From a virus, in the IMG/VR virus record IMGVR_UViG_3300029448_000357, positions 1 through 26,594 of that record: a stretch of DNA of 26,594 bases; one strand, given 5' to 3'. Position 1 is the first letter of the stretch. Each line of letters starts with the position of its first letter. The notes under the pieces are model-generated. The model made no database searches. It was not told the DNA's origin and saw nothing but the letters and a program-made list of their open reading frames with translations. The position numbers and the translations under genes are program-made. Positions 10,483-17,373 of the stretch are shown one piece after another.

Positions 10483-11046
10483 CTAAAAAGAAAGTTTAAA
10501 GTTTGCATCGGCGTGTCGCTGCTCATCAGCCCTAACATAATAAATTAGTGTTGATAACTTTGCCTCTGGACCAAGCCCATAATAAGTTCTTGCGGACTCA
10601 GGACATTCAACATCTTTTATCTTACCAGATGTTACAAGAAATAAATATTGTGTGTAACTGTTTACTGCCTCCTCTTCAAAGTAGTGAACCATTCGATGTG
10701 CTGTTTTTGGCGCACAGATATAAAGTATTAGATAAAAATGCCAGAAAATAAACTGAGCCGTTACGATTAGTCCACGCTCAAAGACATTAGGTTTTGCAAT
10801 GTCAAGAAAAAACATAAGGTGCATACGCTCGTTCTTAGCTTCTTCTAGCATTTGATCTATATAAGAATCATAATCACTTCGAAGACCTCTTAAACTTTTA
10901 AGATGCAAAAGCATACCTGCTACCATAGCTGGGACAGCCGCCACTGTTTCAAGAACTACAGCACGATGTCCATATCTTTTAGCAAAAAAAGTATCAGCAA
11001 TCCATTTAAAAAAACTCGTCATGCTGCGAGCAAAAAAGTCTTTCAT
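10483..11046 (-). CDS. aox: Alternative oxidase (AOX/PTOX family di-iron quinol oxidase)
   Basis: Members of this family oxidise membrane quinol and reduce oxygen to water without pumping protons. The 187-residue protein keeps all six expected iron ligands: E33 in LETVAAVP, E73 and H76 in NERMH, E124 in FEEEAVNSY, E175 and H178 in RADEQRH. Y131, the catalytic tyrosine of the family, is also present. The membrane-bound helical region (FIFWHFYLILYICAPKTAHR, about 99-118) matches the monotopic surface of AOX. The wording of the motifs is closer to mitochondrial/bacterial AOX than to any other di-iron protein. It lacks the long N-terminal extension of mitochondrial forms. AAGGAG lies seven bases before the ATG. 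The preceding gene encodes a three-helix membrane protein. Confidence 0.93.
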   Translation of the reverse strand: MKDFFARSMTSFFKWIADTFFAKRYGHRAVVLETVAAVPAMVAGMLLHLKSLRGLRSDYDSYIDQMLEEAKNERMHLMFFLDIAKPNVFERGLIVTAQFIFWHFYLILYICAPKTAHRMVHYFEEEAVNSYTQYLFLVTSGKIKDVECPESARTYYGLGPEAKLSTLIYYVRADEQRHADANFKLSF

Positions 11047-15785: not shown

Positions 15786-15806
15786 ACCCTGATTAAGCAT
15801 CAGGGT
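15786..15806 (-). terminator. Stem-loop over the stop codon of the first leftward gene (weak terminator or attenuator)
   Basis: ACCCTGAT (15786-15793) and ATCAGGGT (15799-15806) form a perfect 8-bp stem with a five-base loop that contains part of the TAA stop. On the minus strand it is followed by TTTC and then AT-rich sequence, not a full U-run, so termination would be partial. It may stabilise the 3' end of the first message or reduce readthrough into the small genes. Confidence 0.5.
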
Positions 15807-16308
15807 CAGTTTCAAGGTAAGCCATAATAATATCAAGCTTCGCTTCGAAGGTAGCAAGTTTCTTTTCGGTTGCATCCTGTCGCTTTGTGATGGCGTCGAA
15901 TCGTGCTTGGAACTCAGAGAGTTCTGCCGTGTCTGCTTGAATCTTTTTAGCCGGAGCCGCCTCGATCTTCTTAGCCTTTACAGGCTTCGGCGTGTCTTTA
16001 ATCACTGGCTTGGCCTTCTTAGCCTTTACAGGCTTCGAGGTCATCATGTTGATAAACTTCTTTGGAACCGTCTCAGCTTCGAAGAAGCGACCCACATCGG
16101 CATGAGTGATGGGAGTTTCAGTGTGTTCATTCTGAAACTTTAAGAGAATGGCGCTGAAGACTTTGGAGAGTCTGTAAGACTCAGTGGAGTTGTTGCCACC
16201 GATCTTGCCAAAGTGCTTGGCTACAGCATAAAGCTGTCGTGAAGATGCGGGACGATTCCCATCTACGTTAACGAAAATCTCTGATTTTTGAAGGTTCGAA
16301 ATGCTCAT
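15793..16308 (-). CDS. First leftward gene: N-terminal domain, Lys/Pro/Ala linker and C-terminal coiled coil
   Basis: The product is 171 residues. The ATG at 16308 has GGAG seven bases upstream and is preferred to an in-frame start at 16344. Residues 1-95 form an alpha-helical domain (PASSRQLYAVAKHFGKIGGN… VPKKFINMM). About 98-130 is a linker with two KPVKAKK units and further Lys/Ala/Pro. The last 40 residues (ELSEFQARFDAITKRQDATE…) make a heptad coiled coil, probably for oligomerisation. The layout resembles phage proteins that bind DNA with the basic linker. As the first gene after the early promoter region it may act in regulation or DNA organisation. No family is recognised. Confidence 0.8.
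   Translation of the reverse strand: MSISNLQKSEIFVNVDGNRPASSRQLYAVAKHFGKIGGNNSTESYRLSKVFSAILLKFQNEHTETPITHADVGRFFEAETVPKKFINMMTSKPVKAKKAKPVIKDTPKPVKAKKIEAAPAKKIQADTAELSEFQARFDAITKRQDATEKKLATFEAKLDIIMAYLETDPDA
15967..16037. repeat. Pair of 23-base perfect direct repeats in the linker of the first leftward gene
   Basis: The 23 bases at 15967-15989 recur exactly at 16015-16037, 48 bases apart. Both copies lie in the same reading frame and encode the KPVKAKK unit. Perfect identity down to third codon positions suggests a recent duplication or slippage rather than selection on the protein alone. Confidence 0.85.
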
Positions 16309-16550: not shown

Positions 16551-16617
16551 CTAAAGGTTTTCTGAGGGTGTCAACCAGAGACTCTAAAAACTTTGGAGCC
16601 TTTTGCGTGTGTGTACA

Positions 16618-16634: not shown

Positions 16635-16780
16635 CGTAGGCTTGTGAGCCTGTGTAGGGGTACGCAGGTGCCCATGCCCCCTCCCCCGTATATATATACA
16701 TGCTCAAACATTTTCCAAAGGTTTTGGAGTGTCTACCAGTTTGCCCCACCGACCTTTAAAGCCCCCTAAAACTTACAGGC

Positions 16781-16804
16781 ATAAAAAAAGGCCCACCGGC
16801 CTTT
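16781..16804 (-). terminator. Intrinsic terminator in the early leader
   Basis: Read leftward, AAAGGCC (16804-16798) pairs with GGCCTTT (16793-16787) around a four-base loop, followed directly by further T residues to 16783. This is a textbook Rho-independent terminator for leftward transcription. In the rightward direction the T-run after the stem is only three bases. It lies about 60 bases after the expected start of the leftward promoter transcript, upstream of every leftward gene. Confidence 0.75.
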
Positions 16805-16863
16805 AAAGAGTATCCCACGAAAGTGGGCGAGTAGATGTATGTATATGCACCTCTGGCGGGTAC
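16783..16863 (-). ncRNA. Predicted short leader RNA (about 80 bases)
   Basis: A transcript from the perfect leftward promoter should begin near 16863 and end at the terminator near 16783. Before the terminator hairpin it contains a second stem CCCAC/GTGGG (16827-16814). A 15-codon GTG frame (16850-16803) ends with UAA at the base of the terminator stem, but has a poor ribosome site. It may be a stable small RNA, or the attenuated leader of the early operon. Its existence depends on the promoter and terminator predictions. Confidence 0.45.
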
Positions 16864-16870
16864 AAATATT

Positions 16871-16899
16871 ATTATACACCTGTATTTCAGTTTTGTCAA
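16871..16899 (-). promoter_or_regulatory. Leftward sigma70 promoter, perfect consensus
   Basis: On the minus strand TTGACA (16899-16894) is followed after exactly 17 bases by TATAAT (16876-16871). Twelve of twelve bases match the consensus. It should be a strong early promoter for host RNA polymerase, about 560 bases upstream of the first leftward gene. The bases before the -10 (AGGTG) resemble those of the rightward promoter (AGGTA). Confidence 0.85.
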
Positions 16900-16932: not shown

Positions 16933-16961
16933 TTGACAAAGACTCTATATAGGTATATAAT
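16933..16961 (+). promoter_or_regulatory. Rightward sigma70 promoter, perfect consensus, directly before terS
   Basis: TTGACA (16933-16938), a 17-base spacer and TATAAT (16956-16961) match the consensus exactly. The expected transcript start, six to eight bases after the -10, falls at 16968-16969, on the ATG of terS. No ribosome site can therefore be part of the message. The spacer holds the dyad CTATATAG (16945-16952), a possible repressor site. Confidence 0.85.
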
Positions 16962-16968
16962 GTAATAC

Positions 16969-17373
16969 ATGGAAACTAAAAAAGAATTGACAGTAAAACA
17001 ACAAGACTTTCTTGACAGTCTTATAGCTTGTGGTGGAGATGCACGAAAAGCTGCAGAAGTAGCTGGATATGCTCCGGGCAGTTACACATCAGTAGTAAAA
17101 GCCCTTAAGTCTGAAATACTAGATTTAGCTGAAAGTGTGTTGGCGATTAACGCCCCTAAAGCTGCGCTGAAGCTCGTTCAGGTTATGGACAGCGATGAGC
17201 CTATCCCACAGGCTAATATGCGACTACAGGCCGCACAGACGCTCCTAGACCGTGTAGGAGTAGCAAAGAAAGAAAGACTAGATATTAAGGTTGAGACACC
17301 TAGTGGTTTATTCATATTGCCTGCCAAAGCGCCTACAATCATAGAAGATGTAGAATATGAAGAGGCGTACTAG
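16969..17373 (+). CDS. terS: Terminase small subunit
   Basis: The product is 134 residues. The small terminase recognises the packaging site and loads DNA on the large subunit. The N-terminus ELTVKQQDFLDSLIACGGDA followed by ARKAAEVAGYAPGSYTSVVK is the typical helix-turn-helix of phage small terminases. A central helical oligomerisation part (APKAALKLVQVMDSDEPIPQ, ANMRLQAAQTLLDRVGVAKK) and an acidic C-terminus (EDVEYEEAY) follow, the latter probably contacting the large subunit. It is the first gene of the rightward operon, and its ATG coincides with the predicted transcript start. It overlaps the next gene by 17 bases. Confidence 0.9.
   Translation: METKKELTVKQQDFLDSLIACGGDARKAAEVAGYAPGSYTSVVKALKSEILDLAESVLAINAPKAALKLVQVMDSDEPIPQANMRLQAAQTLLDRVGVAKKERLDIKVETPSGLFILPAKAPTIIEDVEYEEAY

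Follow-up and report, generated by a model that had tools for sequence, protein, structure and literature searches.

A promoter-proximal terminator as a candidate attenuator in the leader of the replication operon of an HMO-2011-group marine phage

How is a replication operon transcribed when its promoter, perfect in sequence, runs almost at once into an intrinsic terminator? The question is raised by an ocean virus record of 26,594 bases, analysed at its full length and referred to here as the window. It is a member of the HMO-2011 group of marine phages; its TerL is closest to those of the Pelagibacter phages HTVC115P, HTVC103P and HTVC104P (63-66% identity), followed by those of HMO-2011-type phages. 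The site is a divergent gap of about 660 bases that separates the leftward replication operon from terS, with the following features:

16871-16899, minus strand: leftward promoter TTGACA-17-TATAAT, 12/12
16783-16804, minus strand: intrinsic terminator AAAGGCCGGTGGGCCTTTTTTT, identified from the sequence, by hairpin search and against shuffles
15793-16308, minus strand: first leftward gene, 171 aa, without known family, about 556 nt behind the predicted RNA start
16933-16961, plus strand: divergent rightward promoter TTGACA-17-TATAAT, its -10 box ending 7 nt before the terS ATG
16969-17373, plus strand: terS, terminase small subunit, first gene of the rightward packaging/structural module

The promoter, the terminator and their setting

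An earlier note had described TTGACA-17-TATAAT on the minus strand followed by a 7-bp hairpin with a T-run, ahead of the leftward genes, and inspection of the sequence confirmed all of this, the leftward genes running from 16308 down to about 301. The -35 box TTGACA (16899-16894) and the -10 box TATAAT (16876-16871) are separated by 17 nt, and the RNA is predicted to start at about 16864 on the minus strand. Sixty nucleotides behind this start begins the terminator stem of the hairpin AAAGGCC-GGTG-GGCCTTT (16804-16787, minus strand), a perfect 7 bp with 4 of 7 pairs G-C (-10.2 kcal/mol), which is followed by TTTT to 16783, giving 7 T in all; the RNA from promoter to terminator has a predicted length of about 82 nt. 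The consensus hexamers thus lie within the 16-18 nt spacing of sigma-70 promoters, and the G+C hairpin stands directly before the T-run as in Rho-independent terminators. As a chance control, 200 dinucleotide shuffles of the window were scanned on both strands and contained on average 0.03 perfect promoters and 0.005 perfect 7-bp/T6 terminators each; since the shuffles rarely gave either and never both (0/200), the observation is real and not due to chance.

The terminator is located between the operon promoter and the first gene, where no other sigma-70 site with two or fewer mismatches was found in the window, and this is the arrangement of an attenuator at the level of sequence. The parts and the missing second promoter are direct observations. 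Weak sigma-70 sites occur in the leaders of some AT-rich relatives, and there may be operon promoters invisible to consensus scans. As read from their sequences, the leftward genes appear to include DNA polymerase, helicase-primase and ribonucleotide reductase. The phage also carries an alternative oxidase gene (10483-11046, minus strand; Pfam AOX, E 9.4e-62).

We favour, with a probability of roughly 0.55, an intrinsic, default-on, promoter-proximal attenuator that would free an RNA of about 82 nt, with read-through feeding the leftward operon. Host sigma-70 polymerase would initiate near 16864 (minus strand), and transcription would end after about 82 nt, at 16783-16786, unless formation of the hairpin were blocked. 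Termination would yield a short structured RNA and lower the flow into the replication operon, which would be supplied by read-through past the terminator because the leader has no other strong promoter. We infer the RNA start and end, the efficiency of termination and the dependence of the operon on the leftward promoter from these elements.

The second perfect promoter, facing terS, was absent from the earlier note. In 132 of 151 upstream regions the end of the terS -10 box is separated from the ATG by 6-7 nt (window: 16956-16971, plus strand), and the terS mRNA is therefore predicted to be leaderless or nearly so. Many IMG/VR contigs stop upstream of terS, at distances of 114-800 nt, which suggests a hypervariable region where assemblies tend to break. 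The gap was also considered as the place of a cohesive end or of packaging, but this was rejected, since the accumulated contig ends are spread over that range with no fixed point.

Distribution of the terminator among relatives

About 140 related upstream regions were compared, the relatives having been collected by terS-based scans; extra pattern scans returned mostly already-known contigs, plus unrelated sequence. The sets comprised clade A (L002-L021 and L047, terS identity 88-94%, with the window; 22 leaders), clade B (L022-L026, 81-83%; 5 leaders), L027 (72%; 1 leader), the HTVC115P-type phages (L113-L139; 26 leaders), an intermediate set (L142-L156; 12 leaders) and the HTVC103P-type phages (L193-L272; 75 leaders). 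Conservation of the parts is likewise observed directly. The leftward promoter is present almost throughout, at 12/12 or, in a minority, 11/12, and the first gene is near-universally preceded by a long untranslated leader, its length being roughly 400-800 nt. Divergent promoters also occur at the terS gap of the more distant HTVC033P, with no T-run within 160 nt of them.

Counted as a T-run at +50 to +105, the terminator was found in all 22 clade A leaders, the window among them, in 19/26 HTVC115P-type leaders, and in none of the 5 clade B, the single L027, the 12 intermediate and the 75 HTVC103P-type leaders. Cultured HTVC115P has it, and cultured HTVC103P and HTVC104P are without it. The hairpin search agreed with this count except for L019, which it probably missed because the stem, with its wobble pair, is too weak for the cut-off. 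On the terS tree the presence of the terminator needs 5 changes, of which well supported branches force at least 2.

Within clade A the stem sequence is uniform except for the one wobble change in L019. The HTVC115P-type phages carry a different stem, AACCCUGCC/GGUGGGGUU, at the same distance, which has CCGGTGGG in common with clade A and shows one-sided changes only. As no pair is altered on both sides, covariation speaks neither for nor against the stems of the two sets. Conservation in the near clade may be mere recency, and the presence of two different stems at one position suggests that the terminator is useful in both lineages or was gained twice. A host origin of the terminator was also considered. 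In Psychromonas, Marinobacter, Pantoea and Alcaligenes, canonical terminator hairpins end in the HTVC115P-type GGTGGGGTTTTTTTATGCCTG, a match that counts for the attenuator reading; for the clade A terminator, the collection of bacterial and archaeal genomes contained no exact match.

These counts bear on the earlier note in two ways. Its alternative of an abundant RNA of about 80 bases or an attenuator before the leftward operon fits the presence of promoter and terminator in every close relative, in leaders without a second strong promoter, but control of the whole operon is weakened as a feature of the group because most lineages with the promoter and leader lack the terminator. Conservation of the stem, which it had proposed as a check, holds for the near clade only: another stem replaces it in the HTVC115P-type phages, and elsewhere it is absent. 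The terminator is specific to certain lineages of a larger phage group whose control region is otherwise shared, and attenuation is not needed in general, as clade B, L027 and all HTVC103P-type leaders do without it.

The leader RNA and the sequences behind it

Behind the promoter, the leader contains the following elements:

16846-16864, minus strand: predicted RNA start and 5' hairpin UGUACC...GGUGCA, from the predicted fold
16814-16827, minus strand: second hairpin CCCAC-UUUC-GUGGG, from the predicted fold
16803-16850, minus strand: 15-codon GTG frame, probably not translated
16743-16761, minus strand: terminator sequence present once more, as CTTTAAAGGTCGGTGGGGC, but lacking a T-run; also in near relatives
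16730-16739, minus strand: conserved box CTGGTAGACA (CTAGTTTACA or CTAGTTAACA in other lineages), possible operator, from lineage comparison
16657-16714, minus strand: conserved block AAAATGTTTGAGCA-TATATATA-G-run-ACCTGCGTACCCC, from lineage comparison

The 86-nt leader folds at -26.3 kcal/mol, compared with -18.2 +/- 3.0 in shuffles (z -2.7), into three predicted hairpins: the 5' hairpin UGUACC/GGUGCA, CCCAC/GUGGG and the terminator. Among near relatives the 5' hairpin shows a UG/UA change on one side only, and a similar C-rich/CCAG/G-rich hairpin is found at the 5' end in most lineages, with modest covariation (31-56 of 500 shuffles were as good). The second hairpin has an invariant stem and a varying loop among near relatives, and the linker CAUAUACAUACAUCUACUC, unpaired and free of G, differs among them in both length and sequence. 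The CCCAC arm of the second hairpin can pair with the terminator GUGGG, a C-rich/G-rich complementarity expected from composition. A riboswitch-like attenuator would call for a conserved alternative pairing of similar stability; this antiterminator pairing is weaker than the terminator fold by about 5-11 kcal/mol in seven variants, which counts for the default-on attenuator reading. No match above the gathering score was obtained for the leader with the Rfam 15 covariance models; no known RNA or tRNA was found, and sub-threshold hits (miRNA, CRISPR repeat) were taken as chance.

Trp-type leader-peptide attenuators have a leader hairpin followed by a terminator, and this leader resembles them in that respect. 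The GTG frame that the earlier note had offered as the basis of a translation-linked switch does exist at 16850-16803, but it differs from theirs in not being conserved: its start codon is missing in 7 of the 22 clade A leaders (L002 and L016-L021). A leader peptide is therefore unlikely, the switch is not supported, and a trp-type attenuator was rejected.

The G/C block just downstream of the terminator is the more conserved element, and an odd one. Starting 44 nt beyond the T-run, it consists of the box CTRGTDKACA and, behind a spacer of about 19-21 nt, of a stretch like ATTTTGTATAAGCA, then TATATATA and finally G- or C-runs, and it is kept by lineages with and without the terminator. A second box site lies at 16569-16578 (minus strand) of the window; in HTVC115P/103P types, and in L082, L083 and their kin, box-like sequence also lies within the terS promoter spacer, and in L212-L232 the box is just upstream of the leftward -35. 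Judged by this recurrence, the box is possibly the operator of a shared regulator. The G/C runs keep fixed places between constant flanks but switch strand from one near-identical contig to another (L229, L231, L133, L134, L137, L138, L213 and L214). L229 and L231, for example, are identical in 395/416 columns, and their differences are limited to a 13-column stretch (CCCCACACAGGGGGGGTGG vs CCCACACACCCCCCCATGG) and an 8-column stretch further on.

Other readings and the meaning of the terminator

In lambda pR'-tR' (6S RNA), a constitutive strong promoter, short leader and intrinsic terminator precede the late genes, which are served by the antiterminator Q; the lambda N/nut type uses boxA and boxB in the leader together with the small arginine-rich N protein, and here CTCTTTAA resembles boxA by eye only. 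Regulated antitermination, in which a phage or host factor would load at the promoter or leader RNA and allow polymerase through the terminator at a particular time, is possible but unlikely here. In its favour, the layout of strong promoter, short leader RNA, intrinsic terminator and long downstream operon is that of lambda Q at pR'-tR' and of AlpA in Pseudomonas aeruginosa, where the alpB promoter also has an intrinsic terminator close behind it. The binding site proposed for AlpA lies between -35 and -10, and AlpA lets polymerase bypass the terminators downstream (PMC7969949). A second terminator near +740 in some HTVC115P-type phages would suit such a mechanism, as would the small basic first or second leftward proteins of many relatives. 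Proteins of this kind head the operon in other lineages, although they are not the first gene in the window; those with a motif like S-S-I-Y-N...GGKSK (L116, L123, L136, L139, L203, L235, L244 and L259) are, from their sequences, candidate RNA-binding regulators. HTVC103P-type phages (L148, L152, L203, L225, L244 and L256) have the repeated ribosome-site element ACAACTGGAGGTTGA in front of many of their leftward genes.

Against antitermination, no antiterminator family was matched among the first leftward proteins scanned in the window, including any relative of AlpA or Q. The promoter spacer varies between clade A subgroups (AAACTGAAATACAGGTG and AAACTCTCATACACCCT) that all bear the terminator, so no fixed binding element is seen at the promoter, which sets the locus apart from both likened systems. 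Moreover, the same promoter and leader are kept in lineages that dispense with the terminator. In lambda the layout controls late genes, and here the downstream operon holds replication genes. By analogy, the arrangement may work like lambda pR'-tR' or AlpA, with no regulator visible; we do not claim membership.

Lambda oop RNA is about 80 nt long, antisense to a gene and bounded by a promoter and a terminator of its own, and the RNA predicted here resembles it and similar short phage RNAs in size and layout. A phage small RNA acting in trans as the product that matters, with the operon expressed from elsewhere, is nevertheless unlikely. The perfect promoter, an RNA that is compact, structured (z -2.7, as above) and closed by a terminator of its own, and the G-free linker, which could be a seed region, agree with it. 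But the linker varies among near relatives and has no other similar site on either strand of the window with up to 3 mismatches, Rfam gave no match, no alternative promoter for the leftward operon was found, and lineages without the terminator would not make the RNA; unlike oop, it overlaps no gene and sits in an operon leader.

We consider it improbable that leader and block together form an undescribed phage control element, in which a shared 5' hairpin, a repeated operator-like box present also in the terS promoter and short strand-swapping G/C-run modules would, in one lineage, be coupled to transcription by the terminator through an antitermination factor. Priming of replication by the RNA at an origin in the adjoining block (box, TATATATA and G/C runs), with the terminator setting the primer end, would suit a highly conserved AT-rich and G/C block at the divergence point of two gene modules, but is very improbable, as the block is conserved also in lineages without the terminator and its G- and C-runs swap strands, unlike a fixed RNA-DNA hybrid.

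Under the attenuator reading, the terminator appears to be a brake specific to certain lineages, set in an otherwise common leader, and not a system of a new kind, since close relatives keep it and most other lineages lack it. HMO-2011-type phages are described as dominant and widespread in the ocean (PMC9038755), and the timing of their genes appears little studied, as the words promoter and terminator are both absent from the main text of that paper. The pelagiphage transcriptome paper PMC12753301 is about other phage groups, and in the literature we found no described case of a comparable leader for the HMO-2011 group. Cultured phages with the terminator (HTVC115P) and without it (HTVC103P and HTVC104P) share the same promoter and leader, and the timing of their leftward genes could be compared directly in the presence and in the absence of attenuation.
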